Of a stretch of DNA of 64,000 nucleotides, positions 9,310 through 44,704 are shown piece by piece. Made by a program: the position numbers and the translations under genes. Position 1 is the first letter of the stretch. Each line of letters opens with the position of its first letter. The DNA lies in NCBI GenBank assembly GCA_016125275.1, contig WGMB01000015.1, forward strand, positions 62,001-126,000, read 5' to 3'. A model generated the notes under the pieces. The model worked only from the letters and a program-made list of their open reading frames with translations. It had not been told where the DNA came from and made no database searches. The stretch comes from Acidobacteriota bacterium. GTDB taxonomy: Bacteria; Acidobacteriota; Terriglobia; Bryobacterales; UBA6623.

Positions 9310-9388
9310 GTGAGCAGTGAGCAGTAAACAGTGAGCAGTGGGAAAACAGATCCTAACCACTGCTCACTGCTCACAGTTCACTGCTCAC
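9310..9388. repeat. Heptad-type inverted repeat between convergent genes
   Basis: Two 32-base arms (9310-9341 and 9357-9388) are near-perfect inverted copies separated by 15 bases. Each arm is itself built of GTGAGCAGT-type direct repeats. The stop codon of the last microcompartment gene lies inside the right arm. The resulting long hairpin could stop transcription from both sides. Its composition is unlike the surrounding coding DNA. Confidence 0.7.
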
Positions 9389-9669: not shown

Positions 9670-9672
9670 CGC

Positions 9673-9942: not shown

Positions 9943-9945
9943 CGC

Positions 9946-10224: not shown

Positions 10225-10234
10225 CTTCGCAGCC

Positions 10235-10519: not shown

Positions 10520-10525
10520 CGTCCG

Positions 10526-18807: not shown

Positions 18808-18845
18808 GGGGGTTTTTCGGCGGGTTCGGCGAATGGGTTCGGAAG

Positions 18846-18851
18846 ATTGTA
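18846..18851 (-). promoter_or_regulatory. Possible -10 element of dctQM
   Basis: TACAAT on the minus strand begins 7 bases after the stop codon of the binding-protein gene and precedes the dctQ start by 38 bases. No convincing -35 hexamer is seen. Confidence 0.3.
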
Positions 18852-18858
18852 GCGTTTC

Positions 18859-19899: not shown

Positions 19900-21351
19900 A
19901 TGCGCCGCCCGTTCCGCGCCCTGCTGCCGGCCCTTGCTCTCTGGCTCGCCTGGGCCGCCGCCGCCCCGGCCGCCGATCGGCCCAACATCCTGCTCATCCT
20001 CTCCGACGACCACAGCGTGCCGCACCTGGGCGCCTACGGCTGCCGGGACTGCAAGCGCTTCGACATCACGCCCAATCTGGACCGGCTGGCCGCCGAGGGC
20101 ATGCGCTTTGACCGAGCCTATACCGCGGCGCCGCAGTGCGCGCCGTCGCGCATCTCGATCTTCACGGGCCGCTCGCCGGTCGGCATCGGCGTCACCCGCT
20201 TCGCCCAGCCGGCCCGGCCGGACGTGCCCTTCTTCACCGACGTGCTGCGCGCCAACGGCTACTGGGCGGGCCTCGACGGCCGCCACCAGCACCTCGACGG
20301 CCGCATCAGCGACGCCGAGCACATCCAAGAAGCCTTGCGGCAGGCCGGCATGCGCAGCCTCGATCAGCGCTTCGACCACTTCGTGCGGTCCGCCAGCACC
20401 AAGGGCGCCAACTTGGCCAAGGTCGGCGAGAAGTTCTCGGCCATCCTCGACGAGGTCCCCGCCGGCAAGCCTTTCTTCCTCTACTTCGGTTTCAACCAGC
20501 CGCACAGGGCCTTCGGCGACGACCACGAGAACATCGACCCGGCCGCTCTGGAGCTGCCGCCGGACTGGCCCGACCTGCCCGAGGTGCGCGTCGACTACGC
20601 CCGCTTCCTCGACGAGGTCCGCGACCTGGACGCCGGTTTCGGCCTCATCGACCAGGAGCTCGAGCGGCGCGGGATCAAGGACGACACGCTGCTGATCTTC
20701 ATGGGAGACAACGGCGAGTCGCTGCTGCGCGGCAAGGGCTCGCTGTGGGACCGGGGCACGCACGTGCCGCTGCTGGTCCGCTGGCCGGGCAAGATCCGGG
20801 CCGGTTCGGTGACCGACGCCATGGTCAGCGGCATCGACCTGGGCGCCACCATGCTGGCCGCCGCCGGACTCGAGCCGCCCAACGGCGCCGAAGGCCTCAG
20901 CTTCCTGCCCGCCCTGCTCGGCGAACCCTTCCCCGGCCGCGAATACGTCTTCGCCGAGCGCGGCTGGCACGCCGGCCCCATCACGCGCACCGACGGCCTG
21001 GACCTTTCGCGGTCGATCACCTCCCGCCGCTACCGCTTCATCTACAACGCCCTGCCGGAGCGCACCTACACGCCGGTGGACATGCCCGACAAGGAAGCCT
21101 GGCTGGCCGTCCAAGCCGCCCATCGCGACGGCAAGCTCTCCAGCCTCCACGAACGGCTGTTCTTCCAGAACCCTCGCCCGCTCGTCGAGCTCTACGACCT
21201 CCAGGAAGATCCCTACGAGCTGCGCAACCTGGCCGGCGACGACTCGCTGAAGCTCATCGAGCATCAACTGCAGGTGGAGCTCGAGCGCTGGATGATCCTC
21301 GAGAACGACTACCTCCCCCTGCCGACGCACGTCCGCGGCCGCGCCAAGTAG
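19900..21351 (+). CDS. Secreted sulfatase
   Basis: A 483-residue sulfatase with a Sec signal peptide (residues 1-24, cleavage after APAA). NILLILSDDHSVPH carries the metal-binding Asp pair. CAPSR followed by ISIFTGR contains the formylglycine cysteine (Cys80). MGDNGES and VPLLVRWPGKI are further family motifs. It differs from the sulfatase at 1758-3161 in lacking a Tat motif and lipobox. It is divergent from the TRAP operon, with only about 60 bases between the starts, so sulfate-ester removal followed by uptake of the product is a reasonable but unproven link. TAGAGT ends 8 bases before the ATG. Confidence 0.9.
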   Translation: MRRPFRALLPALALWLAWAAAAPAADRPNILLILSDDHSVPHLGAYGCRDCKRFDITPNLDRLAAEGMRFDRAYTAAPQCAPSRISIFTGRSPVGIGVTRFAQPARPDVPFFTDVLRANGYWAGLDGRHQHLDGRISDAEHIQEALRQAGMRSLDQRFDHFVRSASTKGANLAKVGEKFSAILDEVPAGKPFFLYFGFNQPHRAFGDDHENIDPAALELPPDWPDLPEVRVDYARFLDEVRDLDAGFGLIDQELERRGIKDDTLLIFMGDNGESLLRGKGSLWDRGTHVPLLVRWPGKIRAGSVTDAMVSGIDLGATMLAAAGLEPPNGAEGLSFLPALLGEPFPGREYVFAERGWHAGPITRTDGLDLSRSITSRRYRFIYNALPERTYTPVDMPDKEAWLAVQAAHRDGKLSSLHERLFFQNPRPLVELYDLQEDPYELRNLAGDDSLKLIEHQLQVELERWMILENDYLPLPTHVRGRAK

Positions 21352-22315: not shown

Positions 22316-23557
22316 ATGAATCGCCGTCACTTTCTCGCCGCCACTCTCGCCGCCCCGGCCGCAGCCGGCGCCGCGGACGACTTCAGCCGCCTGCGTGCGG
22401 ACTTTCCGCGGGCGCTCAACGAGACCTACTTCAACAGCGCCGCCCAGCACCCGCTGGGCAACCACACCGTGGCCGGCATGCAGCGCTACATGGACTACCT
22501 GCACAAGGGCCCCGGCGAAGGCCGCGAGGACTTTTGGGAGACCGGCCTCGGCGAAGTGAAGCCGATGTTCGCCCGGCTCATCGGCGCCAAGCCCGACGAG
22601 ATCGCCTTCGCCGGCAGCACCACCGTCGGCGAGAACTTCGTGGTCAACGGGCTGAATCTGCGCGGCGGCAACGTCGTCACCAACGACCTGCACTACAGCG
22701 CCTCGCTGGCCAACTACCTCTCGCGCGCCGAGCGCGGCCTCGACGTGCGCATCGTCAAGCACACTGACTGGCACACCGACCCACGGGCGATGGAGCGGGT
22801 CGTCGACAAGAAGACCAAGCTCATCGCCGTCTCCTGGATCTCCTCGGTCAACGGACACGCCGAGGACCTCAAGGCCCTCAGCGACCTGGCGCACGCCCAC
22901 GGCGCCTATCTCTATGCCGACATCATCCAGGGGACCGGCGCCACGCCGCTGGACGTGCACGCCGCCGGCGTGGACTTCGCCTCCTGCGCCATGTACAAGT
23001 GGCTGCAAGGCGAACACGGCTGCGGCTTCCTGTACGTCCGCGAGGGCTTGGCCGAGAGCGTGCTCAAGCCCACCGAGCTCACCGGCCACCCGGACCTGAA
23101 CTATTCGCCCTGGACCGCCGCCCCCCAGAAAGGGCAGCCCGAGTTCATCAATCACGCCCCGCACGGCGCGGGAGCGTTCGAGGTCGGCACGCCTTCGGTG
23201 ATCACCTACGCCGGCCAGCACGCCTCGTTCCGATACATGGAGAAGCTCGGCGTGGACCGCATTCACGCCCACGCCGCTGGGTTGCTGGGGCGGCTGCGCA
23301 AGGAGCTCGGGCAGTTGGGCTACACGCCGATCACACCCGACCCGGCCCCGGCCTCGATCCTCACCGTGCTGTGCCCTGACCCCGCCGCCACGCGCGCGAA
23401 GATCGAGGCGGCGATCGCGGCCAAGAAGATCCGCATGTCCCTCCGCGGGCCCAATTCCGCCCTCACTCTGGGCCGTTTCGGCAATCACATGCGGTTCTCG
23501 GTCTCCGTGTTCAACAACCAGGACGACGTGGACCAAATTCTTTCCGTTCTGAGTTGA
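22316..23557 (+). CDS. Tat-exported class V aminotransferase-like PLP enzyme, copy 1
   Basis: A 413-residue member of the aminotransferase class V fold (cysteine desulfurase/isopenicillin N epimerase group). PLP should bind Lys228 in CAMYKWLQGE, and the preceding YLYADIIQGTGATPLDV contains the conserved Asp that holds the pyridine ring. AGSTTVGENFVVNGL is the cofactor phosphate-binding region. The N-terminus is a Tat signal (NRRHFLAATLAAPAAAGAA), so the folded, cofactor-loaded enzyme is likely exported. A TACAAT hexamer lies at 22173-22178, upstream. Reaction unknown; an amino-group, lyase or epimerase reaction on a periplasmic substrate is possible. It is a paralog of the gene at 26995-28203. 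Confidence 0.85.
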   Translation: MNRRHFLAATLAAPAAAGAADDFSRLRADFPRALNETYFNSAAQHPLGNHTVAGMQRYMDYLHKGPGEGREDFWETGLGEVKPMFARLIGAKPDEIAFAGSTTVGENFVVNGLNLRGGNVVTNDLHYSASLANYLSRAERGLDVRIVKHTDWHTDPRAMERVVDKKTKLIAVSWISSVNGHAEDLKALSDLAHAHGAYLYADIIQGTGATPLDVHAAGVDFASCAMYKWLQGEHGCGFLYVREGLAESVLKPTELTGHPDLNYSPWTAAPQKGQPEFINHAPHGAGAFEVGTPSVITYAGQHASFRYMEKLGVDRIHAHAAGLLGRLRKELGQLGYTPITPDPAPASILTVLCPDPAATRAKIEAAIAAKKIRMSLRGPNSALTLGRFGNHMRFSVSVFNNQDDVDQILSVLS

Positions 23558-23583
23558 CACATCGCAAGCTCTCGATTTAGATT
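23554..23583 (+). promoter_or_regulatory. Sigma-70 promoter of the receptor gene at 23766
   Basis: A perfect TTGACA (23554-23559) overlaps the stop codon of the preceding gene. It is followed after 18 bases by TAGATT (23578-23583, 4 of 6). The predicted leader is about 175 bases and contains a 10-bp hairpin (TCTATGATCC/GGATCGTAGA with a TCGT loop) at 23599-23622. Confidence 0.6.
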
Positions 23584-23765
23584 ATCGATTCCCTTTTGTC
23601 TATGATCCTCGTGGATCGTAGAGCTTGTCGCCCGGCGAGGCCCTGCCATCGGCTTCTCGACCGGGCGCCCAAGCGGGTCCCTGCGCTCCGCCGCGCTGCT
23701 GTCTAGAGCAGGTTTCTACCGTTTGTTCGGGCGTTTGTGTTCCGTTCGTGCGCGAGGTGGATTCG

Positions 23766-26700
23766 ATGTCAACTGCAAGGTGCGCAGCCGCGCTCCTCTT
23801 CTTCACTTTTTCCGTAGGCCTTTTCGGCCAGTCGCGATCGGTCATTCTGGGCACGGTCGTCGATGAGTCCGGTGCGCCGATTCCCGGCGCGGAAGTCAAG
23901 ATCCTCAATACGGGGACGCAACAACAGCGGACGACCGCCACGTCCGAGCGCGGCGACTACGAGGTGACCTCTCTCGACGTAGGCGTCTACGAGGTCACCG
24001 TGCAGTCGCCCGGATTCGCCGTCTTCGTCGTGCGGAACCTGCAACTGGAAGTCGACCAGAGGGCCCGCGTCGACGCCAGCCTCAAGGTCGGCGACCTGAC
24101 CCAAGAGATCACCGTCACGGCCTCGACGGCGACGATCCAGACCGACGACGCGACTCTGTCCACCGTCATCGACGCCGCCAAGATCCGGCAGCTCCCCCTG
24201 CCCGGCAACCGCAACCTGTTTCGCCTGGCCCTGCTGGCGCCGGGCATGAGCCGCGGACCGGCCTCGTCGGTCACCACCAGCGGCTTCGGCCCGGGCTTCG
24301 GCATCGCCGCCATGGGGCAGAAGGTGCACAACAACGCCATCCTGCTCGACGGCGCGCCGCTGAAGACGGCCATCCACGGCGCGGTGCGCATGCGGCCTTC
24401 GGTGGAAGCCATCGAGGAGTTCCGTGTGGAAGCCGGCTGGTACTCGGCGCAGTACGGCACCCAGTCCGGCGCCCAGATCGTGGCGACCATCCGCCCGGGC
24501 ACCAACGAGTTCCACGGGACGCTGTTCCACTTCTTGCGCAACCAGGTCTTCGACGCCAAGAACTTCTTCGAGTCGCCGACGGCGGACAAGAAGCCCCTGC
24601 GGCGCAACACCTTCGGCGGCGTGATCAGCGGCCCGATCATCCCCAACCGCACCTTCTTCACCTTCAACGCCGAGCTCTACCGCGAGCGGCGCTCGACCCA
24701 GACTTTTGCGGTGTATCCCTCGGCCTCCATGCGCACCGGAACGCTCACCGAGCAGTACTTCCAGCGCGCCGATGGCAGCCTGCTCCCGATTCTCGACCTG
24801 CAATCCGGATCGCCGTTCCCGAACAACCAGATCCCGTCGTCGCGGATAGCCCCCCAGGCCACGGCCCTGATGAAGTTCTACCCCAGCCCGAACATCGCGC
24901 AGTCGAGCTTTGACGGCACCCAGAACTACACCGGCGCCACCCGCAACGCCGACAACGACGACCAGTACTTCGTGCGCATCGACCACAACTTCACCGAGAA
25001 GGACCGGCTGTTCGGCCGCTACGGCATCCAAACGGTCAACCTGCCGGTGTTCCCGATCAACCCGAACCCGTTCTTCGTGCAGCGGCGGCCCCGCCGGCAG
25101 CAGAACGCCACGCTCACCTACACCCGCATCCTGAAGCCGACGATGCTCAACGATCTGCGGGTCTCCTTCAATCGGGACGTCTTCAAGGCCGTGGACGACG
25201 TCAGCGGCACGGACTTCAACATCCTGCGCGACCTCGGCATTCCGGGGCAGACCGACAACCCCATCGACACCGGCCTGCCGTCGATCTCCATCACCGGCGT
25301 GGCCTCGCTCGGCAACACTGACATCAACACCATCTGGGACGAGTCCCGCCAGATCGCCGACACCTTCACCTGGACCAAGGGCAGCCACACCATCAAGCTC
25401 GGCTCGGAGTACACCCGGCTGCGCGTGGACCGGCGCACGGTCTCGTTCGTCAAGGGCGCCTTCAACTTCACCGGCATCCACTCCGGCAACATCGCGGGCG
25501 TGACGGCGACCGAACGCGGCCGGCTGGCCTGGGCGGACTTCCTGCTCGACGAGCCGCAGCAGGTGCGGTTGGGCTTTACGCCGAATCTCCCTCCCGGCGC
25601 CGACCCGGGCACCTATCCCCGGATGCGCTTCTGGCGCTTCCACAACTTCATCAACGACGACTGGAAGCTCAGCTCCAAGCTGACCATGAACATCGGCCTG
25701 CGCTATGAGTACAACTCCTCAATCGTCGACAGCGGCGGACAGTCCCGCAACTTCGACTTCGAGAAGCAGGACCTCTACCCCGCCCCGCTGACGCCCGGCC
25801 CGCTCAACAACCCCAGCCGGAAGCTGTTCGCGCCCCGCATCGGCCTGGCCTGGCGCCCCTTCGGCGGCTCCTCGACGGTCGTACGGGCCGGCTACGGCCT
25901 CTTCTACAACGTGAACATGATGAACATGTTCATGCCGGCGCTGGCGGCGAATCCGCCCAACAACCTCAACATCAACGAGCTCAACTCGGCCGGCAACGTG
26001 CGCATCCACATGGCCAACGCCGACCAGGCCAGCGCCCTCTCGATCAACAGCGAGATCAACTCGGCCGACACGGCGCGCGGCGTCAGCGACGTGCACCAGT
26101 GGAACCTCAACGTCCAGCGCGCGCTGCCGGGCTCGCTGACGATGGAGCTGGCCTACGTCGGCTCGAAGTCCGCGCACTTCGACTCCCCGCGCACGGTCAA
26201 CCCCTACGTGCAAGGCACCACCACTCGCGTCTACCCGGACTGGGGCCCGATCGAGAACATCTCGCTCGACACGGCCGGAACCTACCACGGCCTGCTGGCC
26301 AAGCTCGAGCGGCGCATGAGCAACGGCATGACCTTCCTGCAGACCTACACCTGGTCCAAGACCATGTTCGGCTCGTTCGCCTGCTGCGGCGCCCAGCGCC
26401 ACAACGATCCCTACAACTGGAGCCTCGAAAAGGGCCTGGCGGAAACCGACCAGCGCCACCGCGCCACCACGGCCTTCCTGTGGGAGCTGCCATTCCTCAA
26501 GGGCCACGACACTTGGAAGAAGAAGCTGCTGGGCGGCTGGCAGGTCAACGGCTCTCTGACGCTCGAAACCGGCCTGCCGATGCATCCCACGCAGTCGCTC
26601 AAGCCCATCGACGACGGCTGCCCGCGCTGCACCCATCGCCCGGACCGCATCGCCGACGGCCGTCTGGACAGCTCCCAGCGGACGCTGCAGGAGTTCTTTG

Positions 26701-26975
26701 ACACCTCCGCCTTCGCCACGGCCCGGGGCCACTACGGCAACGCCGGCCGCAACATTCTGTGGGCGCCGGGGCTGGTGAGCTTCGACTTCGCCGTGTTCAA
26801 GAACTTCCACATCTCCGAGCAGAAGAATGTGCAACTGCGCTGGGAGAACTACAATTTCACCAACACTCCGCCGTTCAATCCGCCGACGCTCGAGATCAGC
26901 TCGGGCCAGTTCGGCCAAGTGACGAGCGCGGGGCTGGGCCGGGAGATGCAGTTCGCGCTGCGCTTCCAGTTCTGA
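23766..26975 (+). CDS. TonB-dependent receptor with carboxypeptidase-regulatory domain (Oar-like), copy 1
   Basis: A 1069-residue outer-membrane protein. Order: signal peptide (ending LFGQ, about residue 21); a carboxypeptidase-regulatory-like beta domain (VILGTVVDESGAPIPGAEVK, residues 24-110); a plug (RNLFRLALLAPGM, NNAILLDGAPLK, FRVEAGWYSAQYG); and a large beta-barrel ending in an aromatic residue (ALRFQF). NEFHGTLFHFLRNQVFDAKN is typical of the acidobacterial receptor family. It probably imports a large or scarce substrate using TonB energy. It starts the operon with the class V enzyme copy 2, a CehA fusion and a PD40 protein, and is therefore the likely entry gate for their substrate. 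Confidence 0.93.
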   Translation: MSTARCAAALLFFTFSVGLFGQSRSVILGTVVDESGAPIPGAEVKILNTGTQQQRTTATSERGDYEVTSLDVGVYEVTVQSPGFAVFVVRNLQLEVDQRARVDASLKVGDLTQEITVTASTATIQTDDATLSTVIDAAKIRQLPLPGNRNLFRLALLAPGMSRGPASSVTTSGFGPGFGIAAMGQKVHNNAILLDGAPLKTAIHGAVRMRPSVEAIEEFRVEAGWYSAQYGTQSGAQIVATIRPGTNEFHGTLFHFLRNQVFDAKNFFESPTADKKPLRRNTFGGVISGPIIPNRTFFTFNAELYRERRSTQTFAVYPSASMRTGTLTEQYFQRADGSLLPILDLQSGSPFPNNQIPSSRIAPQATALMKFYPSPNIAQSSFDGTQNYTGATRNADNDDQYFVRIDHNFTEKDRLFGRYGIQTVNLPVFPINPNPFFVQRRPRRQQNATLTYTRILKPTMLNDLRVSFNRDVFKAVDDVSGTDFNILRDLGIPGQTDNPIDTGLPSISITGVASLGNTDINTIWDESRQIADTFTWTKGSHTIKLGSEYTRLRVDRRTVSFVKGAFNFTGIHSGNIAGVTATERGRLAWADFLLDEPQQVRLGFTPNLPPGADPGTYPRMRFWRFHNFINDDWKLSSKLTMNIGLRYEYNSSIVDSGGQSRNFDFEKQDLYPAPLTPGPLNNPSRKLFAPRIGLAWRPFGGSSTVVRAGYGLFYNVNMMNMFMPALAANPPNNLNINELNSAGNVRIHMANADQASALSINSEINSADTARGVSDVHQWNLNVQRALPGSLTMELAYVGSKSAHFDSPRTVNPYVQGTTTRVYPDWGPIENISLDTAGTYHGLLAKLERRMSNGMTFLQTYTWSKTMFGSFACCGAQRHNDPYNWSLEKGLAETDQRHRATTAFLWELPFLKGHDTWKKKLLGGWQVNGSLTLETGLPMHPTQSLKPIDDGCPRCTHRPDRIADGRLDSSQRTLQEFFDTSAFATARGHYGNAGRNILWAPGLVSFDFAVFKNFHISEQKNVQLRWENYNFTNTPPFNPPTLEISSGQFGQVTSAGLGREMQFALRFQF

Positions 26976-26994
26976 GGCCGCAACGAGAGAGGAC

Positions 26995-28203
26995 ATGAGC
27001 ATCAATCGACGACAATTCTTCGTCTCGAGCGCGGCGGCGAGCGCCGCCGCGCTCAGCGCCTCGGGTTTCTCCGGGGTGCGGAGCCAGTTTCCGCGGGCGG
27101 AAAGCACGGTCTACCTGGACGCCGCCGCGCACATGCCGCTGTCCACCTACACGGCGGAGGGCGTCCGCAAGTACAACGACTTCCACATGTACGGCCCCGG
27201 CGAGGGCCGCGGCGAGTACGCCTCGCAGATCCAGCGCGAGATCCGGCCGCTGTTCGCCAAGCTCATCAACGCCAAACCCTCGGAGATCGGGCTGGTCGTA
27301 TGCACCAAGGCCGGCGAGGCGGCGGTCGTCAACGGGCTCGGCATCCAGGAGTCCGGCGGCAACCTCGTCACCAACGACTTCCACTACGCCGGCTCGATCC
27401 ACGACTACGTCGGCCGCCGCAAGGCGGGCATGGACGTGCGCATCGTCCGCCACCGCGATTGGCGGATCGACCTGAAGGATATGGAGAAGGCCATCGACGC
27501 CAAGACCAAGCTGGTCTCCATCACCCTGGTCTCCAACGTCACCGGCTGGGTGGAAGACGCCAAGGCCATCAGCGACCTGGCGCACGCCCACGGCGCGTAC
27601 GTCTACGCCGACATCATCCAGGCCGCCGGCAGCGTTCCGGTGGACGTAAAGGCGCTGGGGCTCGACTTCGCCGCCTGCTCGAACTACAAGTGGCTCCAGG
27701 GCGTGCGCGGCGCCGGCTTCCTGTACGTGCGCGAGGAGTTGCAGGGCTCCAAGGTCCACGACCTCAGCTTCCCCGGCTACGTGCACTTCAACTACGCACC
27801 CTGGGTGAGCCACGCGAGCTCCGGCGGCGACATGCCCTACGAGGCCCCCGACGACGGCCGCCGCTATGAGCCCGGCAACGTGAACTGGGCCGGGTACGCC
27901 GGCCAGTACGAAGCCCTCAAACGCATGCTCGACTGGGGCGTCGACAAGATGTACGCCTCGGTCAAGCCCCTCGCCGACAAGCTCAAGAAGGAGCTGCCGT
28001 CGATGGGCTACACCATGCTCACGCCGCCCGACGCGGAGAGCCTGCTGGTGGTCGTCCAGGTCAAGGACCTGGAGAAGACCCTCGGCGTGCTGCGCAAGGC
28101 CAACATCCAAGTGACCTCGGCGGGCGAGAATCGGCTGCGCTTCTCCCCGGCCATCTACAACAACATGAGCGACGTCGACCGTCTGCTCGACGCGCTGGCT
28201 TGA
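26995..28203 (+). CDS. Tat-exported class V aminotransferase-like PLP enzyme, copy 2
   Basis: A 402-residue paralog of the gene at 22316-23557, with the same order of motifs: a Tat signal (NRRQFFVSSAAASAAALSA), CTKAGEAAVVNGL for the cofactor phosphate, YVYADIIQAAGSVPVDV for the ring Asp, and Lys232 in CSNYKWLQGV as the PLP-binding residue. It follows the receptor gene by 19 bases with GAGAGGA as ribosome-binding site. Two divergent copies flanking one receptor suggest that they process different forms of the same substrate, or form a heteromer. Both ideas are inference. Confidence 0.85.
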   Translation: MSINRRQFFVSSAAASAAALSASGFSGVRSQFPRAESTVYLDAAAHMPLSTYTAEGVRKYNDFHMYGPGEGRGEYASQIQREIRPLFAKLINAKPSEIGLVVCTKAGEAAVVNGLGIQESGGNLVTNDFHYAGSIHDYVGRRKAGMDVRIVRHRDWRIDLKDMEKAIDAKTKLVSITLVSNVTGWVEDAKAISDLAHAHGAYVYADIIQAAGSVPVDVKALGLDFAACSNYKWLQGVRGAGFLYVREELQGSKVHDLSFPGYVHFNYAPWVSHASSGGDMPYEAPDDGRRYEPGNVNWAGYAGQYEALKRMLDWGVDKMYASVKPLADKLKKELPSMGYTMLTPPDAESLLVVVQVKDLEKTLGVLRKANIQVTSAGENRLRFSPAIYNNMSDVDRLLDALA

Positions 28204-28280
28204 TCGGGCGAGACAACGCCCGGGCGCAGGGGTCCGCCGGTCCGTACGGCGCACCCCTGCGCGCTCCCAGGATCGTTCCC

Positions 28281-30800
28281 ATGAAGACTCCGCACACCTT
28301 GCCGGCCGCCCGTCGCGGCCGCCGCTGGCTGGCCCTCGCCGCCGCGGCGGCGCTGACGGCGACCCTCGCCCTCGGCCAGGGCCAGCGACGCATCTTCTCC
28401 CGCATCATGACGGGCGAGCCCTACACGCTCGAATGCTACCTGCCGCAAATCACCAACGGCCCCAACTTCCCCACTTGGTCGCCCGACGGAACCCAGCTCG
28501 CCTTCGCCATGAAGGGCTCCATCTGGCGCATCCGGCTCGGCGAGACCACCGCGCACGAGCTCACCAGCGGCCCCGGCTACGACTCCATGCCGGCCTGGTC
28601 GCCCGACGGCAAGTGGATCGTCTACACCTCCGACCGCAATGAGACCATCCACCTGCGCCTGCTGAACCTCGCCGACGGCTCCACCCGTGAGCTGACCTCC
28701 GGCAACTCCATCAACGTGGAGCCGGAATGGTCGCCCGACGGCTCCAAGATCGCCTACGTCTCCACCTGGCCCAACGGCAACTACAACATCTACGTGATGC
28801 CGCTGCGCGACGGCGCCGCCGGCGAGCCGACGGCCCTCACCCAAGACTTCGAGCTGATTCCCCCCACGGTCTACTACGGCAAGTGGGCGCTGCACATCCA
28901 CCCCACCTGGACCCGCGACGGCTCCGAGCTGATCCTGGTCTCCAACCGCGACAACAAGCACGGCTCCGGCGGCCTCTACCGCATGAAGGCCGAGCCCGGC
29001 GCCAAGCTGCGGCGCTTCCACTACGAGGAGACCACCTGGAAGGCCCGGCCGACGCTCTCGCCCGACGGCGCCAAGCTCGTCTACAGCTCCTACCTCGGCC
29101 GCCAGTGGCAGCAGCTCTGGGCCATGCCGCCGAACGGAGGCGACGCCTTTCCGCTCACCTACGGCGACTTCGACCGCACCACGCCGCGCTGGTCTCCGCA
29201 GGGCGACCGCATCGCCTTCATCTCCAACGAGACCGGCGACACCAGCCTGTGGCTTTGGCACTGGTTCGGCGGACGCATGGAGCGCGTGCCGATCGACAAG
29301 CTGGCCTACCGACGGCCCATGAGCTCGCTGCGCGTGCGCGTGCTCGACAAGCAAACCAAGAAGCCCATGCGCGCCCGGGTCCACCTCAAGGCCGCCGACG
29401 GCCGGGCCTACGCGCCGACCGAGAGCTGGTTTCGCGCCGACTGGCTGATGTTCGACCACATGGACCAGGAGGGCGAGTACCACTACTTCCACACCGACGG
29501 GTCGTTCGAGATCGAGCTGCCCCCGGGCCTCACCCGCCTGAGCGTCTCGCGCGGCTTCGAATACCTGCCGGTCGACCGCGAGATCACCGTCAGCGGCGAC
29601 GCCCCGGCCAGTCTCGACATCGAGCTCGAGCGCATCGAGAACATGGCCGCCAAGGGCTGGTGGGACGGCGACAACCACTTCCACATGAACTACGCCGGGG
29701 TCTACTTCAACACCCCGAAACGGCTGATGGAGCAGGCCGAGGCCGAAGATATCCACGTGCTCAACAACCTCATCTGCAACAAGGAGCAGCGGCTGCCCGA
29801 CGTGGCGCACTTCTCGGGCCGCCCGGACCTTGTCAGCGTCGCCGACCGCATCCTGTTCCACAACCAGGAGTATCACCCGCCCTTCTGGGGTCACGCCGCC
29901 TATCTGAACCTCAAGCAGCACTTGGTGATCCCGGACTACGTCGGCTACCAGAACACCATCGTCGCCAGCCTTTCCCCCACCAACACCACGCCGGCCCGCT
30001 CCGCCCGCGCCCAGGGGGGCCTGGCCGGCTACGCCCACGGCGCCGGCAGCCACTTTCCGGTGGACCTGGCGCTGGAGAACGTGGACTTCGTGGAAGCCAA
30101 CAACATCGACTCCATGCAGCCTCTCTACCGCGCCTGGAACTGCGGCTACAAGGTCGTCGCCTCCGCCGGCGAGGACGCTTTTCCGAACTTCTACCGCAGC
30201 TACATCCTCGGCTCCAACCGCGTCTACGTGCGTTCCGGCCGAAAGCTCGACTATGACCAGTGGATCGCCGACTTCCAAGCCGGCAAGGCCTTCGTCACCA
30301 GCGGCCCCCTGGTCCGCCTGACGGTGGACGGCAAGGAACCCGGCGACGCCATCCGGCTCTCCCCGGGCGCCCACGAGCTGACCGTGCAGGTGGAGGTCTC
30401 TTCCATCACCCCGGTCGAGAAGATCGAGATCCTGCGCAACGGCCAAGCGGTGGAAACCATCGAGCCCGAGCCCGGCTCGCGCCATGTGAAGGTCGCCCGC
30501 AAGGTCTCCGTCGACGGGAGCAGTTGGATCGGGACGCAGGTCCGGGCCCAGTACAAGCGCGACCCCATCCGGCGGCCGTTTCCCTTCGCCGCCACCATGC
30601 CCGTCTGGGTCCTGCTCGGAGACCAGCCGGTGCGCTCCAAAGAGGACGCCGAGTACTTCGCCGGCCTGATCACCCAAACCCTCGAACGCGCCATGACGAC
30701 CGGGCCCTGGAACAACGACGAGGAGCGCGAGCAGACCCGAGCGCTCTATGAGCAAGCGCTGCAAGAGATGAACGCACGCGCGGCGGAGGCCTCCCGATGA
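28281..30800 (+). CDS. PD40 beta-propeller fused to CehA/McbA-type metallohydrolase, copy 1
   Basis: An 839-residue exported protein (signal peptide to about residue 35). Residues of about 55-335 hold repeated WSPDGTQLAFA-, WSPDGKWIVYT- and WSPDGSKIAYV-type blades of the TolB/PD40 propeller. Near residue 460 starts a PHP-like hydrolase region with DGDNHFHMNYAG, whose clustered Asp and His residues would bind metal; LEIDF- and HGAGSHFPVDLALE-type strands and a final beta domain follow. CehA hydrolyses the aryl carbamate carbaryl, but most homologs are uncharacterised. The start was placed at the signal peptide rather than at the longer frame. It overlaps the next gene by four bases. Confidence 0.83.
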   Translation: MKTPHTLPAARRGRRWLALAAAAALTATLALGQGQRRIFSRIMTGEPYTLECYLPQITNGPNFPTWSPDGTQLAFAMKGSIWRIRLGETTAHELTSGPGYDSMPAWSPDGKWIVYTSDRNETIHLRLLNLADGSTRELTSGNSINVEPEWSPDGSKIAYVSTWPNGNYNIYVMPLRDGAAGEPTALTQDFELIPPTVYYGKWALHIHPTWTRDGSELILVSNRDNKHGSGGLYRMKAEPGAKLRRFHYEETTWKARPTLSPDGAKLVYSSYLGRQWQQLWAMPPNGGDAFPLTYGDFDRTTPRWSPQGDRIAFISNETGDTSLWLWHWFGGRMERVPIDKLAYRRPMSSLRVRVLDKQTKKPMRARVHLKAADGRAYAPTESWFRADWLMFDHMDQEGEYHYFHTDGSFEIELPPGLTRLSVSRGFEYLPVDREITVSGDAPASLDIELERIENMAAKGWWDGDNHFHMNYAGVYFNTPKRLMEQAEAEDIHVLNNLICNKEQRLPDVAHFSGRPDLVSVADRILFHNQEYHPPFWGHAAYLNLKQHLVIPDYVGYQNTIVASLSPTNTTPARSARAQGGLAGYAHGAGSHFPVDLALENVDFVEANNIDSMQPLYRAWNCGYKVVASAGEDAFPNFYRSYILGSNRVYVRSGRKLDYDQWIADFQAGKAFVTSGPLVRLTVDGKEPGDAIRLSPGAHELTVQVEVSSITPVEKIEILRNGQAVETIEPEPGSRHVKVARKVSVDGSSWIGTQVRAQYKRDPIRRPFPFAATMPVWVLLGDQPVRSKEDAEYFAGLITQTLERAMTTGPWNNDEEREQTRALYEQALQEMNARAAEASR

Positions 30801-31738
30801 AGCCCTTGCGGCGACTCCTTCTCGCCGGGGCGGCCGTCGCCCTGGCCGCCTCGGCCCAACAGCCCGGCCCGCGGGACATGCCGCAGGAGATGGTCTGGGT
30901 GGACCGTAGCGGCGAAGTCCTCGGACGCGTCGGCGCGGTCCAGAACTCGATGTTCTTCCCCGAAATTTCGCCCGACGGCCGCTACATCGCCGTCTCGGCC
31001 CGCGACGGCGAGGTCAACGACCGCGACATCTGGATTCACGAGGTCGCCACAGGGAAGAAGCGTGCGCTGGCGCCGGCCAAGGGCAACGACAACTTCCCGC
31101 TGTGGCTGCACCACGAAGCCGCCATCGTCTTTACCAGCACCCGCGGCGGCAACTACGACCTCTACCGCGTGGCGCTCGACGGCGCCGCCGAGCCGCAACC
31201 GGTACTGCAAACGCCGGACTCGCAGTATCCTCGCGCGCTCTCGCCCGACGACCGTCTACTGGTGCTGACCCACGCCAAGCCCGCAGGCCGCAAGCTTCTG
31301 CTTCTGACGCTCGACAGCGGCGAGCAGCGCGAGCTGCTGCCTTCCGGCGCCGCCTGGGCCGACGGCGTGCGCTACTCCCCCGACGGCCGCTGGATCGCCT
31401 GGTCGGCCAACCCCGAGGGGCTGTGGGAGGTCTTTGTCGCGCCGGCCTCGGACCCGAGCGCGGCCGTGAAGGTCACTCGCGACCTGGCGCAAGGCTGGGC
31501 CGGCGGCGGCGGGCAGGTCCGCTGGCGCGCCGACGGCAAGGAGCTGTTCTATCTGATGGGAGACGCCGTGATGGCGATGCCCGTGGTCGACGGCGAGATC
31601 CCCAAACCCGAAACCGCCAAGAAGCTCTTCTCCGCCGACGGCTTCCGCGGCAACTTTCCCGACGAAGCGCCCTGGCTCACGCAGTACGACGTCACCGCCG
31701 ACGGCCAAAAGTTCGTCTTCGTGCGGACCGTGCGATGA
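30797..31738 (+). CDS. Exported PD40/TolB-like beta-propeller protein
   Basis: A 313-residue protein with a signal peptide (VALAASAQ, cleavage near residue 22). At least four propeller blades are visible: ISPDGRYIAVSARDG, FTSTRGGNYDLYRV, YSPDGRWIAWSANPEG and VTADGQKFVFV. No catalytic domain is present. It resembles the propeller half of the preceding fusion and overlaps it by ATGA, so it is translated with it. A binding or scaffold role is likely. Confidence 0.8.
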   Translation: MKPLRRLLLAGAAVALAASAQQPGPRDMPQEMVWVDRSGEVLGRVGAVQNSMFFPEISPDGRYIAVSARDGEVNDRDIWIHEVATGKKRALAPAKGNDNFPLWLHHEAAIVFTSTRGGNYDLYRVALDGAAEPQPVLQTPDSQYPRALSPDDRLLVLTHAKPAGRKLLLLTLDSGEQRELLPSGAAWADGVRYSPDGRWIAWSANPEGLWEVFVAPASDPSAAVKVTRDLAQGWAGGGGQVRWRADGKELFYLMGDAVMAMPVVDGEIPKPETAKKLFSADGFRGNFPDEAPWLTQYDVTADGQKFVFVRTVR

Positions 31739-31742
31739 CCGC

Positions 31743-32588
31743 TCAGGCTTCCGGCTCGATATGCGGAAACCAGGCGCGCCGCGCCGTCTCGCCCAGGATC
31801 CAGCGCTTCTCCTCGTCGGAGAGGCGCAGCGCCTGCTGGAAGATCTTCAAATGCTCGCTGTAGCTCAGCTTGGGAGTCCAGACGGCGTTGGGGTAGTTGC
31901 TGCCCCACACGCACCGGTCCGGCCCGAAGGCCCGTATGACTTGGCGCGCGGCGTCGTGCAGATCGCTCGAGGGATATCCCATTTGCGTGCCGGTCGAAAT
32001 GAAATCGACCTTCGCGATTAAATTCGGAAAACGGGCCATGCCGCACACCAGCGCCGTATTTTCCTCGAGATCGGGTCCCACCTTCAGGTCCATGCAATGG
32101 CAAAACCCGACCGTCACGGAGTCGAACTCAGCCAGCAGCTTGGAGGCGCTCTCGATCATCTTCGGCTGCATCAGAAAGATGTCGATCGTGGCCCCTTCCT
32201 CGCGGCAAATCGTCCACAGCGCGCGCACCCCGGCCGAGTCGAAGGTATCTTCGCGGCGGGACGGGATGCTGCGTAGCGTCTTGACGTTGAATTCCCTGAG
32301 CAATTGGCGGAGAGTATCGGGCGCATGCGGTTGATCCGGATCCAGTGTGCAAACGCCGGCCAGCCAAGGGTCCGCCCGCTTGGCCACGTCGGCCAGATAG
32401 CGGTTGTCGTAGTCGTAGAACGACACCGTATGGACCGCCCGCACGCAGTGGACTCCATTGGCCAGGCTCTCATGCCGCAGATCCTCCACCGAACCCTTGC
32501 CGGCCGGCGGCCGCATCGGCTCCGCGCGCGGCGGATAGCGCCGCTCATCGGGGGAATAGATGTGCGCGTGGCAGTCGATGACCAACAT
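31743..32588 (-). CDS. Amidohydrolase 2 family TIM-barrel hydrolase
   Basis: A 281-residue protein without signal peptide. It begins with LVIDCHAHIYSPDE, the His-x-His metal motif after the first strand. FCHCMDLKVG and FGPDRCVWGSNYP (the usual Gly-Ser/Thr-Asn/Asp-x-Pro ending of the family, here with Asn) follow. Members hydrolyse or decarboxylate cyclic and aromatic acids, lactones and similar compounds. The sequence is on the minus strand between the PD40 gene (4 bases away) and the second CehA fusion (24 bases between the starts). Its cytoplasmic location would place it after uptake. Confidence 0.82.
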   Translation of the reverse strand: MLVIDCHAHIYSPDERRYPPRAEPMRPPAGKGSVEDLRHESLANGVHCVRAVHTVSFYDYDNRYLADVAKRADPWLAGVCTLDPDQPHAPDTLRQLLREFNVKTLRSIPSRREDTFDSAGVRALWTICREEGATIDIFLMQPKMIESASKLLAEFDSVTVGFCHCMDLKVGPDLEENTALVCGMARFPNLIAKVDFISTGTQMGYPSSDLHDAARQVIRAFGPDRCVWGSNYPNAVWTPKLSYSEHLKIFQQALRLSDEEKRWILGETARRAWFPHIEPEA

Positions 32589-32612
32589 GCCTACCCAGAA
32601 TAGACAACGACC

Positions 32613-35114
32613 ATGAAGAACGGAATCGCCCTTTTTCTCGCCCTGCTCGCCGTCGCTCCGCTCGCCGGCCAACCCCGCCATTTCGTGCGCGGCAACGGCG
32701 CCGGCGGCTATGTCTACAGCTACTATCTGCCGCAGACCGCGTCCACGCCGTGGCGGCCCGCCTGGTCTCCCGACGGCAAGGAGATCGCCTTTGCGATGTC
32801 CGGCTCGATCTGGAAGATCGGCGTCCACGACGACGTCGCCTACGAGCTCACCGCCTCGGCGACCTACGACTCCTCGCCCTCCTGGTCGCCCGACGGCCGC
32901 TGGATCGCCTACACCGCCGAGGACGCCGACGGCATCGACCTGAAGCTGCTGAACGTCGCCACCGGCGAGAGCGAGACGATTCGGACCGAGGGCCAGAGCT
33001 TCGACCCCACCTGGTCGCCCGACGGCAAGCGGCTCGCCTTCGTCCGCACGGCGGCCAAGGGCGAATACGAGGTCCGCATGCTGCCGTTCGACAACGGCAA
33101 ATTCGGCGCTCCCGTCGACGTGACGACCGAGAACAGCTTCGGCCGCTCGCGGCTGTACTTCAAGCCCTACGACGACCACATCCAGCCCACCTGGTCGCCC
33201 GATTCCCAGGAGATGATCCTAGTCTCGAACCGTGGCATCCCGCTGGGCTCCGGAGCGATGTGGCGCGTGCCGGTGAAGGCCGGCGGCATGGCCGAAGCGA
33301 AGATGCTGCTGCGCGAGGAGACCCTCTACCGCACCAGCCCGCAGTGGTCCCACGACGGCAAGCGCGTGCTCTACGCCTCGCACCGCGGTAGCCAACACGT
33401 GAACCTCTACGTCCTGCCGGTGGCGGGCGGCGAGCCCTACCAGCTCACCTTCGGACGCTATGACCACTTCGACCCGCGCTGGTCTCCTGACGGCGAATGG
33501 ATCGCCTACATCGCCAACGAGCCCGGCGTGAGCGAGCTGCGCATTCTGCGGACCTTCGGCGGCGGCGAGCGCAAGGTCGAGATCCGCCGGCGCGTCTACC
33601 GCCGGCCGATGGGCTCGCTCGAAGTGGTCGTCAAGAACCAGGGCGAACCCGGCGCGGCCCGCCTCTACGTGACCGGTTCCGACGGCAAGGCCTACGCCCC
33701 GCCCACGGCCTACCAGCGCGTGGAAGGCCGCGCGGCGCACCGCGACTTCTTCCACGCCGAAGGGCGCTTCACCGTCGACCTGCCGGCGGGCCAAGCCCTG
33801 GTGGACGCCGCCAAGGGCGTCGAGTACCTGCCCTTCTCCCAAACCGTCACGATCGAGCCCGGCAAGGTCTCGCTGCTCGAAGTCGACCTCCAACGGTTCA
33901 CCAGCATGAACGCCGCCGGCTGGTACTCCGGCAGCGACCACGTCCACATGAACTACGGCGGCAACCTCCACAACACGCCGAAAAACCTGATGATGATGGC
34001 CCGCGGCGAGGACCTCGACGTCGTCGGGCAGAAGGTCGCCAACAAGGACAACCGCATCTTCGACCCCGACCAGTACACCGGCAAGCCGCACCCGCTCTCG
34101 TCGCCCGAAGCCCTGCTGTTCTTCGACCAGGAGTACCGGCCGCCCTTCTACGGCCACCTCAACTTCATCAACCTCACCCAGCACCTGCTCTCGCCGTTCC
34201 TGACCGGCTACGAGGGCACCGCCATTGACAGCCTCTACCCCAGCAATACGGACATGTTCCGGCTCGGCCGCGCCCAAGGGGCCCTCGGCGGCTACGTCCA
34301 CCCCTTCTCCCGCGACCCCAAATCGGCCGGCTATGCGGTGGCGCGCGGCTTCCCCGTGGACCTGGCGCTCGAAACCCTGGACTACATGGAAGTGCTCACC
34401 AGCGCCGGCCACTTCCGATTCACCGCGCCGGTCTGGCACCGGGCGCTGAACTGCGGCTTCCGGGTGACAGCCACGGCCGGCGAGGACTCCATCCTCAGCC
34501 TGCACGCGACGCCCATCCTCGGCTCTTCCCGCCTCTACGCCTACCTCGGCGAAAAGCTCGAGTGGCCGGCCTGGGTGGACGCGATCCGCAAAGGCCGCAC
34601 CTTCGTCACCAACGGCCCCCTGGTGCGCACCACCGTCAACGGCGAGATCCCCGGCGGCGAGATCCATCTGCCGGCCGGCGGCGGCGAGGTCCTGCTGGAG
34701 GGTCGCGTGGATTCCGTCACGCCCCTCGACAAGATCGAGATCTTCCGCAACGGCAAGGTCGTCGAGACGCTGCCCTGGCCCCAAGGCGAACGCGGCGTCA
34801 GCTTCTCGCGCCGGATTCCGGTCGACGAGAGCTCCTGGATCACGGTTCGCGCCTCGGCCGACCGGATGATCCACCCCATCGACGACTCCTTCGTGGTCGG
34901 CGAGACCGGCCCCACCTACATCCTCTGCGGCGACCAAAAGATCCGGTCGCGCACCGACGCGCAGTACTTCGTGGAATGGATCGACGACATCACCGAGCAG
35001 GCCAAGGCGCACCCCGGCTGGCGCTCGGAGAAGGAAAAGACCCACGTGCTCGACCAGTTCGCCGAAGCGCGGCGCATCCTGGTCCGGCGCGCCGAAGAAG
35101 CCCCGGCGCGCTAG
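32613..35114 (+). CDS. PD40 beta-propeller fused to CehA/McbA-type metallohydrolase, copy 2
   Basis: An 833-residue paralog of the gene at 28281-30800, with signal peptide (LLAVAPLAGQ), PD40 blades (WSPDGKEIAFAMSG, WSPDGRWIAYTAED, WSPDGKRLAFVRT) over residues 45-320, and a hydrolase part starting with SGSDHVHMNYGGN near residue 438. The first metal-site Asp/Asn pair of copy 1 (DNHFH) is SDHVH here. AGEDSI, HPFSRD and FVTNGPLVRTTVNGEIPGG agree with copy 1. It is separately transcribed and ends before a long-loop terminator. The two copies may act on related substrates. Confidence 0.83.
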   Translation: MKNGIALFLALLAVAPLAGQPRHFVRGNGAGGYVYSYYLPQTASTPWRPAWSPDGKEIAFAMSGSIWKIGVHDDVAYELTASATYDSSPSWSPDGRWIAYTAEDADGIDLKLLNVATGESETIRTEGQSFDPTWSPDGKRLAFVRTAAKGEYEVRMLPFDNGKFGAPVDVTTENSFGRSRLYFKPYDDHIQPTWSPDSQEMILVSNRGIPLGSGAMWRVPVKAGGMAEAKMLLREETLYRTSPQWSHDGKRVLYASHRGSQHVNLYVLPVAGGEPYQLTFGRYDHFDPRWSPDGEWIAYIANEPGVSELRILRTFGGGERKVEIRRRVYRRPMGSLEVVVKNQGEPGAARLYVTGSDGKAYAPPTAYQRVEGRAAHRDFFHAEGRFTVDLPAGQALVDAAKGVEYLPFSQTVTIEPGKVSLLEVDLQRFTSMNAAGWYSGSDHVHMNYGGNLHNTPKNLMMMARGEDLDVVGQKVANKDNRIFDPDQYTGKPHPLSSPEALLFFDQEYRPPFYGHLNFINLTQHLLSPFLTGYEGTAIDSLYPSNTDMFRLGRAQGALGGYVHPFSRDPKSAGYAVARGFPVDLALETLDYMEVLTSAGHFRFTAPVWHRALNCGFRVTATAGEDSILSLHATPILGSSRLYAYLGEKLEWPAWVDAIRKGRTFVTNGPLVRTTVNGEIPGGEIHLPAGGGEVLLEGRVDSVTPLDKIEIFRNGKVVETLPWPQGERGVSFSRRIPVDESSWITVRASADRMIHPIDDSFVVGETGPTYILCGDQKIRSRTDAQYFVEWIDDITEQAKAHPGWRSEKEKTHVLDQFAEARRILVRRAEEAPAR

Positions 35115-35716: not shown

Positions 35717-38152
35717 ATGGATTGGCGGCAACTTGGGCGGGCTTCAGCCCGCCGCGCGCTCGTGCGGGACTGGACGTCCTGCTTCAGCGAGCCCTTTCGA
35801 AAGCCCTGGCGGCGCGGCGTTTTGGCGGCGCTGCTGCTGGCCGCTTCCCTGCCCGCGACGGAGCTCGACGGAACGATCCGCGACCCGCAGGGCTTCGTGA
35901 TCGTGGAGGCGCGGGTCCTGCTGCGGCAAGGCGCGCGCGAGACCGCCCCGACCCGCTTCGCGTCCTCGGACAGCCAAGGGCGGTTCCGCTTCACGGACCT
36001 GCCGCCGGGCCCCTACCGCCTGGAAGCCTACGCGGCCGGTTTCGAGCGCCGCACCGCCGAGGTGGAGATCGACGGCCCCCGCGTCACCGCCGACCTCGAG
36101 CTGCAACCGGCCGGCCTGCACGAAGGCGTGGTCGTCACGGCCTCCCGCCAGGAGGCCGACACCGAGAGCTCGCCGCTGCCCACCTCCGTGTTCTCCGGGC
36201 AGCGGCTGCGCGAGCAGATGCCCACGAACCTGGCGCAGGCCCTGTTCGAGGCGCCCGGCGTGAGCTGGGTCAACGCCGGAGCCTTTCGCGGCCGGCCGGT
36301 CATCCGCGGGCTCGACAGCAACCGCATCCTCGTGCTGGTCGACGGCGAGCGGCTCAACAACAATCGCACCTCCACCGGCCAGGGCGGCATCGAGACGGCC
36401 CTGGTCGACGTCTCCGACATCGAGCAAGCCGAGGTCGTCCGCGGCCCGGGTTCGGTGCTCTACGGCAGCGACGCCTTCGGCGGCGTAATCAACATCCGCA
36501 CCCACAGCGGCCGGCGCCGGGACGGGCTGGGCGTAGGCGCTCGGCTCGGGGCCACGGCGCTGCCCAACAGCGACGGCCGGCGCGCCCACGCTGAGCTCTC
36601 GGCGGGCAACCGTTGGTTCAGCGTACGCGGCCGCGGCTCAGTCGGCGCGCTGCAGAACTACCGCACACAAGACGCGACGGTGTATTTCTCCGGCGCGGAC
36701 GAGAGCGGCGCCCTCGGCGAGCTGAAGATCTTTCCCTCTTCCGACCAGAGCTTCTCGTTCAAGTTCCTGCACCACGGCGGATACAACTTCGGCCTGCCCA
36801 GCCTGGACCCCAACCCGGTCTTTCTGGCCGAGTTCCCCTTCAGCAAGCTCAACAAGTACAGCGGCGGATACCAGAAGAGCTTCGACTCGTCCGCCCTGTC
36901 CTCGATCCGCGCCAACGTCTACAGCCAGAGCCAGACGCGCTCGTTCTTCAACCGGATCGCCGCCGGTCCCGGCATGGAGATTCTCAGCGACACGATCACG
37001 GACGTGGGAAGCGCCGGCTTCGACGTCCAGGCGACCTCGCTGCCCTCGTCCCGCCACGTGCTCACCTACGGCGTCACCCACTACCGCGACCGCAACCGAG
37101 ACTTCCGGCTCCAGACGATGGTGGGCGCCGGACCGTCTCCGATCGTGCTCGACGCCGCGCCCAGCGTCCCCAACTCCAGCTTTTCGGGCTCGGGAATCTT
37201 CTTGCAGGACCAGTTCCAGGCCACCCGGCGGCTCCGCATCACCGGCGGCCTGCGGGGCGACCGCTTCGTGCTCGAGACGTCTGACACGCCCGGCTTCGAC
37301 CCCGGCGTGAGCGCCGTCCTGCCCGCTCGGCAGACCGACAGCGCGGTCAGCGGCAACCTCGGCGCCAGCGTCGACGCCGGCGGCGGCTGGCTGTTCAGCG
37401 CCAACCTCGGGCGAGCCTTCCGGGCGCCCAACCTGTTCGAACGCTTCTTCTTCGGCCGCGGATCAGTGGGCGGATTCATCGTCCCCAACGCCAACCTGGA
37501 GCCCGAGACATCGTTGCAGCTCGATACGGGCGTGCACTTCCGCAGCGGCCCGGCGAAGGTCTCCGTCAACTACTTCCGCAACCGCCTGGACAACCTGATC
37601 AGCTCGGCGGCCGGCACATTCCAGGGCCAGCCGACGCTCGCGGGCCAGCCGATTTACCAGAACATCAACATCGAGGAAGCCCGCATCCAGGGCGTGGAAT
37701 CCAGCGCGGAGTTTTCGGCCCAGGCGCTGGATTCACAGTGGAGGCCCACCTTCAGCGTCGCCTGGCAGCGCGGCGACAACCTCGTCACCGGCCAGGCCTT
37801 GCCGTTGATCGCCCCGCTGGTCGCCCAAGCTCGCCTGCGCTGGTCGCCCCAAAGATCTCGGCTGTGGAGCGAGCTCGGCATGGTCGCCGTTCCCGGCAGC
37901 CAACGCGTTCCCGAGGGCTTCACGCCCATCAAGGCCTACACCGTCTTCACCTGGCGCGCCGGCTACGAGCTGATCCGCGGCGAGAGCGGCTTGGGCGCGC
38001 ATCTGCCCGCCGGCGTCTCCTCGGTCAACCTCTACGCCGGGCTCGAAAACCTGGGCGGCCGCACCTACTACGGCTTGTTCGAGACCGTTCCCCAACCGGG
38101 CCGCGACTTCCGCTTCGGCGTCGAGCTGAGCCTCGACAGCAGCGCCCGCTAG
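35717..38152 (+). CDS. TonB-dependent receptor (BtuB/Oar-like), copy 2
   Basis: An 811-residue outer-membrane receptor. A long charged N-terminus precedes the signal core (GVLAALLLAASLPAT). A short carboxypeptidase-regulatory domain (ELDGTIRDPQGFVIVEARVL) is followed by a canonical plug: VVVTASRQEADTESSPLPTS, VSWVNAG, GRPVIRGLDSNRILVLVDG and VRGPGSVLYGSDAFGGVINI. This plug is closer to siderophore, cobalamin and metal receptors than the other two receptors here. The barrel ends in DFRFGVELSLD. It is followed 30 bases later by the DUF4198-Kelch gene, so uptake of a metal complex is likely. GAGGTG precedes the ATG. Confidence 0.93.
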   Translation: MDWRQLGRASARRALVRDWTSCFSEPFRKPWRRGVLAALLLAASLPATELDGTIRDPQGFVIVEARVLLRQGARETAPTRFASSDSQGRFRFTDLPPGPYRLEAYAAGFERRTAEVEIDGPRVTADLELQPAGLHEGVVVTASRQEADTESSPLPTSVFSGQRLREQMPTNLAQALFEAPGVSWVNAGAFRGRPVIRGLDSNRILVLVDGERLNNNRTSTGQGGIETALVDVSDIEQAEVVRGPGSVLYGSDAFGGVINIRTHSGRRRDGLGVGARLGATALPNSDGRRAHAELSAGNRWFSVRGRGSVGALQNYRTQDATVYFSGADESGALGELKIFPSSDQSFSFKFLHHGGYNFGLPSLDPNPVFLAEFPFSKLNKYSGGYQKSFDSSALSSIRANVYSQSQTRSFFNRIAAGPGMEILSDTITDVGSAGFDVQATSLPSSRHVLTYGVTHYRDRNRDFRLQTMVGAGPSPIVLDAAPSVPNSSFSGSGIFLQDQFQATRRLRITGGLRGDRFVLETSDTPGFDPGVSAVLPARQTDSAVSGNLGASVDAGGGWLFSANLGRAFRAPNLFERFFFGRGSVGGFIVPNANLEPETSLQLDTGVHFRSGPAKVSVNYFRNRLDNLISSAAGTFQGQPTLAGQPIYQNINIEEARIQGVESSAEFSAQALDSQWRPTFSVAWQRGDNLVTGQALPLIAPLVAQARLRWSPQRSRLWSELGMVAVPGSQRVPEGFTPIKAYTVFTWRAGYELIRGESGLGAHLPAGVSSVNLYAGLENLGGRTYYGLFETVPQPGRDFRFGVELSLDSSAR

Positions 38153-38182
38153 CCCGCCATTCCCCACAAGGAGACATCCGCA

Positions 38183-44702: not shown

Positions 44703-44704
44703 GC

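Follow-up and report, generated by a model that had tools for sequence, protein, structure and literature searches.

The locus described here lies in a 64,000-nucleotide stretch (the window) of contig WGMB01000015.1 of an Acidobacteriota bacterium. The source genome measures 7.55 Mb, and its relatives are metagenome-assembled genomes (MAGs) of the Bryobacterales/Bryobacteraceae. Two class V pyridoxal 5'-phosphate (PLP) enzymes, a TonB-dependent receptor, two fusions of a PD40 propeller to a CehA/McbA metallohydrolase, a small PD40 protein and an amidohydrolase are encoded between positions 22316 and 35114. An earlier note, made from the sequence alone, had assigned these genes to an envelope pathway; all were found where it placed them, and their families were confirmed by profile searches. 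PLP enzymes and PD40-CehA hydrolases are very likely linked in function and work together, because the same partners reside side by side in 24 genomes. The features of the locus are the following (Tat, twin-arginine translocation).

22316–23557, plus strand: PLPa, class V (fold-type I) PLP enzyme with a Tat-like leader (Aminotran_5 137 bits, 8e-40; N-terminal MNRRHFLA; catalytic Lys in CAMYKWLQG)
23554–23583, plus strand: sigma-70-like promoter TTGACA-N18-TAGATT (consensus scan, 10/12 matches; weak)
23766 (best start)–26975, plus strand: Oar-like TonB-dependent receptor (OMP_b-brl_4 703 bits, 8e-211; CarboxypepD_reg 76 bits)
26995–28203, plus strand: PLPb, second class V PLP enzyme with a Tat-like leader (Aminotran_5 135 bits, 3e-39; leader INRRQFF)
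28281 (best start)–30800, plus strand: CehA1, predicted exported PD40 beta-propeller and CehA/McbA metallohydrolase fusion (PD40 5e-36; NF038032 167 bits)
30797–31738, plus strand: small PD40 (TolB-like propeller) protein, predicted exported (PD40 50 bits)
31743–32588, minus strand: AH2, Amidohydro_2 family hydrolase without signal peptide (PF04909 119 bits, cut-off 26.4)
32613–35114, plus strand: CehA2, second predicted exported PD40-CehA/McbA fusion (NF038032 181 bits)

Genes are ordered PLPa-receptor-PLPb-CehA1-PD40-AH2-CehA2. Receptor, PLPb and CehA1 genes are separated by 19 bp and 77 bp, and CehA1 and PD40 genes overlap by 4 bp; given this tight spacing, the four are read as a putative single transcript. 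PLPa lies upstream, at 208 bp from the receptor start. The TTGACA-N18-TAGATT site starts at the PLPa stop codon, ahead of the receptor operon. The operon had been called promoter-led, which is plausible but weak, since 3 sites of such match quality were found in the region and 1.2 are expected. The amidohydrolase had been grouped with these genes, from which it stands apart. AH2 is antisense: the gene meets PD40 tail to tail and diverges from CehA2, at a distance of 24 bp, and the protein starts with MLVIDCHAHIYS, with no leader. Being encoded on the minus strand and devoid of a signal peptide, it is outside the operon transcript, and is probably cytoplasmic.

Neighbourhoods were scanned in one genome per species (84,980 species), which yielded 76 loci, denoted below by L numbers (G numbers denote genomes). 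Among 95 related class V PLP genes, distributed over 43 assemblies, 48 (from 24 assemblies) were found within 3 kb of a PD40-CehA gene, counts being approximate because the simple gene caller used for annotation missed some PLP genes (as one adjoining CehA1 in L144) and shortened some starts. Only 0.6–4% of genes would be so placed by chance, as estimated from 5 close or 32 total CehA-domain matches per 7.55 Mb. Chance neighbourhood was rejected on this ground, and on that of the PLP-CehA co-variation described below. The earlier note had named co-occurrence in relatives as the check, and scattered genes as the refuting result; the neighbourhoods did not refute it. PLPa orthologues adjoin PD40-CehA in 13 of 18 cases.

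Near-complete sets reside in about 8 MAGs, with identities to the window genes mostly of 59–75%. The set receptor-PLPa-CehA2-AH2-(PD40)-CehA1-PLPb is kept in L085, L086, L087, L089, L118 (no AH2 called), L122 and L128. L111 is complete except for the receptor in the stretch covered; L124 misses PLPb, for which its assembly has an orthologue on a separate contig (L084). The window has a gene order other than that of the relatives, and rearrangement has thus not broken up the set. G003 has the receptor, CehA2 and a tandem of four PLP genes in one place, with CehA1 on the same contig, about 5 kb past the receptor. Receptor orthologues (68–75% identical) are within the same cluster in several MAGs, small PD40 homologues (51–63% identical) adjoin CehA or PLP in 12 loci, and AH2 orthologues (54–63% identical) adjoin CehA2 (or PLPa) in 10.

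Paralogous versions of the set were also identified, in which PLP-CehA pairs adjoin other receptors. Receptor-PLP-CehA-PD40 operons are found in L099, L103, L104 and L105, receptor-PLP-CehA arrays in L101 and L110, and the arrangement CehA-(C45)-PLP, where C45 is a hydrolase described below, in L106, L108, L113, L114, L126, L142 and L148. PLP and CehA genes abut or overlap in L099, L110 and L125. Pairwise distances of PLP enzymes and of the adjacent CehA proteins are correlated (Mantel r 0.76, p 1e-4, 44 pairs); shared organismal descent accounts for part of this, yet some assemblies contribute several paralogous pairs. In L130, L133, L140 and L157 the CehA1 orthologue (72–75%) is head-to-head with a PLP gene of a different subfamily (39–45%), as if the PLP slot counted for more than the PLP lineage.

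PLPa and PLPb are 43% identical: the second gene, noted earlier as a copy of the first, is a related paralogue, not a near-copy. Both exceed the 21.5-bit cut-off of PF00266 (aminotransferase class V). Both carry a twin-arginine motif at the N terminus (MNRRHFL in PLPa, INRRQFF in PLPb), as do all 20 close homologues from the bacterial family. By a lenient rule, Tat-like starts were scored in 84 of the 95 PLP genes versus 17% of the other genes in these loci (128 of 746), and the enzymes are predicted, in agreement with the earlier note, to be exported by Tat. Five of the 11 homologues without Tat-like start belong to Latescibacterota, Handelsmanbacteria and a MAG labelled Gemmatimonas, and have no CehA alongside. 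Several homologues in G003–G005 are probable Tat lipoproteins, because a Cys ends the leader (as in SQLGC, MFFGC and ALTGC).

Lys232, Asp206, His130, Gln209 and Arg382 (PLPb numbering) are invariant in 20/20 homologues, as is Tyr131. The Schiff-base Lys232, Asp206, which faces the PLP nitrogen, and the carboxylate-binding Arg382 can be aligned with SufS residues. The SufS equivalent of Arg382 is the arginine holding the substrate carboxylate, and its invariance suggests that the substrate carries an alpha-amino-acid moiety and is not just a simple amine. The AlphaFold2 model of PLPb (pLDDT 82, pTM 0.82) has a SufS-like predicted fold. SufS/CsdA and the C-DES cystine lyase are the closest solved structures (Z about 39, 19–25% identity; best match Z 39, 24% identity). 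PLPa and PLPb differ from them in having export leaders and lacking the catalytic Cys: in the alignment no such residue is invariant across homologues, and the C-terminal loop is missing or Cys-free. In desulfurase NCBIfam models the two score 97.6 and 101.5 bits versus a SufS cut-off of 475, and are far under every desulfurase cut-off. Identity with cysteine desulfurases (SufS/CsdA/IscS) was rejected on both grounds. Membership of the PvdN family was rejected as well (NF051467, 40.6 and 41.0 bits versus a cut-off of 650).

CehA1 and CehA2 pass the cut-off (80 bits) of the CehA/McbA model NF038032, and appear by eye to have ordinary signal peptides. The putative metal ligands of CehA1 (H466, H468, E530, H538, H586, E605, D632) are invariant in 28 sequences, and the set HxH/E/H/H/E/D is shared with the McbA carbaryl hydrolase of plasmid pXWY and with its CFD-2 relative. 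Four His are reported in a review to be important in the related CehA of CFD-1 (PMC8292978). The N-terminal part of the CehA1 model matches TolB (Z 27.6, 2.2 Å, 249 residues). In the search with the whole model TolB-like propellers filled the match list, masking the comparison of the CehA domain with PHP (polymerase and histidinol phosphatase) structures; a sequence search found no solved structure for this domain. Hydrolases of this type are known from carbamate-pesticide degraders, are exported, and in Sphingomonas CDS-1 a TonB receptor gene lies upstream of cehA (PMC8292978). The proteins of the window share with the carbaryl and carbofuran hydrolases the domain family, metal-ligand positions and predicted export. 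They are about 23–24% identical to McbA, from which they differ in that a TolB-like propeller replaces the N-terminal region. No PLP enzyme is found beside mcbA or cehA in the plasmids examined.

The receptor combines the OMP_b-brl_4 barrel and CarboxypepD_reg extension typical of Oar-like TonB-dependent transporters (PF25183). The 7.55 Mb genome of the window encodes at least 65 receptors of the OMP_b-brl_4 family and has 32 matches to the CehA/McbA domain. A second Oar-like receptor (OMP_b-brl_4, 732 bits) resides in the window at 41484–46699, with a CehA/McbA-domain protein (102 bits), devoid of PD40 match, encoded 2 bp downstream; no PLP enzyme is present there.

Additional gene families have been recruited beside PLP or CehA in the relatives. 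A C45-family N-terminal nucleophile (Ntn) acyltransferase/hydrolase lies directly upstream of PLP in 7 loci. These enzymes, similar to acyl-CoA:6-aminopenicillanic acid acyltransferase, reside in L106, L108, L113, L123, L138, L142 and L148, and some copies have a Tat-like leader. RraA-like proteins, related to 4-carboxy-4-hydroxy-2-oxoadipate aldolase/oxaloacetate decarboxylase, were found in 5 loci; acetamidase/formamidase-like, gamma-glutamyltransferase and isochorismatase-like proteins were also identified. PLP ammonia lyases resembling DgaE are recruited too; some of them start with a Tat-like leader, and they apparently make a second family of predicted exported PLP enzymes. Such DgaE/SelA-like lyases adjoin the same receptor and PLP genes in L063 (16991–19567), L092, L095, L124 and L143. 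These neighbours share a theme, in which C-N or ester bonds are split first and chemistry on amino acids or 2-oxo acids comes next. The PLP homologues of L129, L131, L132 and L135, which come from Latescibacterota, Handelsmanbacteria and a MAG bearing the label Gemmatimonas phototrophica, lack a Tat-like leader, and have beside them, in place of CehA, putative genes of HpcH-like aldolase type and CocE-like hydrolase type, recognized by eye. The Gemmatimonas label is doubtful, because the neighbourhood is very like those of Latescibacterota.

Because of the theme of the recruited neighbours, we tentatively favour a catabolic module that is specific to this lineage, works in the periplasm and has an amino-acid-containing conjugate as its substrate. 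Families, predicted fold, residues and leaders come from the sequences and models; from these we infer substrate and reaction as follows. The Oar-like receptor would capture or import the compound, and in the periplasm the PD40-CehA metallohydrolases, on the evidence of family and ligands, would cut a bond of ester, carbamate or amide type. The class V enzymes, which would be loaded with PLP in the cytoplasm before export by Tat, may then convert the liberated alpha-amino-acid part by transamination, elimination or epimerisation, reactions for which the cofactor machinery is in place. The small PD40 protein might, at a guess, aid assembly or binding. Products would pass into the cytoplasm, where AH2 could act as a follow-on step, and paralogous PLP-CehA pairs may each be devoted to a substrate of its own, related to the others. 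The initial suggestion that an amine- or ester-containing substrate is broken down fits the CehA ligands and the recruited C-N hydrolases (C45, formamidase-like, gamma-glutamyltransferase, isochorismatase-like), but a simple amine is disfavoured by the predicted role of Arg382.

Several data weigh against such a module. Of the 18 genomes examined in the family, 16 have A2-type CehA and 4 have close PLP homologues. Twelve relatives in the family possess a CehA2 orthologue with no PLP partner, so CehA is able to work alone, and PLPb orthologues are solitary in L083, L088, L091 and L115. Elsewhere in the phylum, no contig carries both PLP and CehA homologues in the 12 genomes, besides that of the window, that have the two. 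A receptor nearby is in itself weak evidence, given the abundance of the family in the genome, and no linked regulator, inner-membrane importer or downstream pathway that would name the substrate was found. The module is thus a Bryobacterales trait, and not an obligate one. Co-occurrence across Acidobacteriota, as envisaged in the earlier note, holds within Bryobacterales, but linkage is lost outside the order. Both homologues coexist in 13 genomes of the phylum sample versus 3.3 expected (p 2e-6), a result given little weight because only the best 2–4 candidates per genome were scored and the genomes are concentrated in a few families. Of the envelope pathway first proposed there remains a recurrent, co-varying set, which is not obligate and the amidohydrolase of which is probably cytoplasmic.

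CehA2 without PLP and solitary PLPb genes could mean that two loosely connected functions are neighbours through shared regulation only, PD40-CehA and receptor forming a scavenging unit, and the PLP enzymes a separate duplicated family. The receptor-CehA pair at 41484–46699 would fit as well. We regard this as rather unlikely, since PLP and CehA co-vary subfamily by subfamily, CehA1 loci retain the slot for a PLP partner, and some PLP-CehA pairs abut or overlap. Tailoring, rather than breakdown, is suggested by the comparison with PvdN and PtaA. These enzymes of pyoverdine maturation are exported by Tat with PLP already bound, and act on a glutamate residue of pyoverdine in the Pseudomonas periplasm, in a process that also involves an Ntn hydrolase and a TonB receptor (PMC6206403). 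By analogy, the PLP enzymes would modify an exported peptide-like metabolite (siderophore or signal), CehA or C45 would serve as deacylase, as PvdQ does, and the receptor would mediate re-uptake; the C45 hydrolase upstream of the PLP gene is indeed reminiscent of PvdQ beside PvdN. The Tat leader is shared with PvdN and PtaA, but pyoverdine genes are absent here, the partners are PD40-CehA hydrolases, and both PLP enzymes are far under the PvdN cut-off. No biosynthetic gene, whether for a peptide synthetase or otherwise, turned up in the gene list of the window or in the conserved neighbourhoods, and we hold tailoring to be unlikely.

BsrV, the broad-spectrum racemase of Vibrio, is another PLP enzyme active in the periplasm (PMC7890096). 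PvdN, PtaA and BsrV weaken the view, expressed earlier, that exported PLP enzymes are rare. The BsrV precedent for wall editing and the TolB-like nature of PD40 domains would both suit envelope maintenance, in which the module edits cell-wall or surface polymers, for instance the stereochemistry of peptidoglycan amino acids. BsrV is, however, of a different PLP fold type (alanine-racemase type), and is found outside any receptor-hydrolase set. Patchy distribution and several paralogous sets per genome are also unlike housekeeping, which makes this explanation improbable. That the Oar-like protein exports the enzymes, instead of importing a substrate, seems most improbable. Myxococcus Oar is needed for PopC secretion (PMC6434023), but the huge expansion of the receptor family is typical of nutrient receptors, and the lipoprotein-type leaders of some homologous PLP enzymes would hold these in the cell envelope.

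The locus is filed as a putative receptor-linked catabolic locus using predicted periplasmic PLP enzymes. A broader version of the catabolic module is possible, if somewhat less likely. Bryobacterales may run a whole amino-compound pathway outside the cytoplasm, by substrate-specific sets each made of a receptor, PD40-CehA and at least one Tat-exported PLP enzyme (class V; in some genomes also DgaE-like lyases and exported aldolases of RraA-like type). Duplication would have multiplied these sets, much as it has polysaccharide-utilisation loci, but their targets would be C-N-bonded compounds. No description combining these components was found in the literature searched, in line with the earlier statement that no characterised system has this composition. 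Nor did that literature yield an account of PLP-CehA pairs, of several duplicated sets of them, or of their being conserved within a single order of soil bacteria. The PLP enzymes with a known periplasmic role are few, and each was found with one specialised substrate. If a catabolic module is confirmed, amino-group chemistry in widespread soil Acidobacteriota would take place outside the cytoplasm as a regular way of obtaining nutrients, a natural context would be gained for the CehA/McbA family, which is best known from degraders of pesticides, and the role of large receptor sets would become testable at a named locus.

Additional loci were noted in the window. A gene trio on the minus strand (17048–19836), upstream of an exported sulfatase (19900–21351), may encode a tripartite ATP-independent periplasmic (TRAP)-like transporter, as judged by size and order (large and small membrane subunits, binding protein). 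A haem/siderophore-type TonB receptor followed by a Kelch-repeat protein (35762–39808) has its own TTGACA-N17-TAGACT site ahead of it and is outside the module. Three EutN/CcmL vertex proteins, one bacterial microcompartment shell protein and a class II aldolase, encoded on the minus strand at 9385–11326, make a small microcompartment locus; a similar one resides in the relative G017 (L078, 18538–19939), about 7 kb downstream of its CehA2 orthologue.

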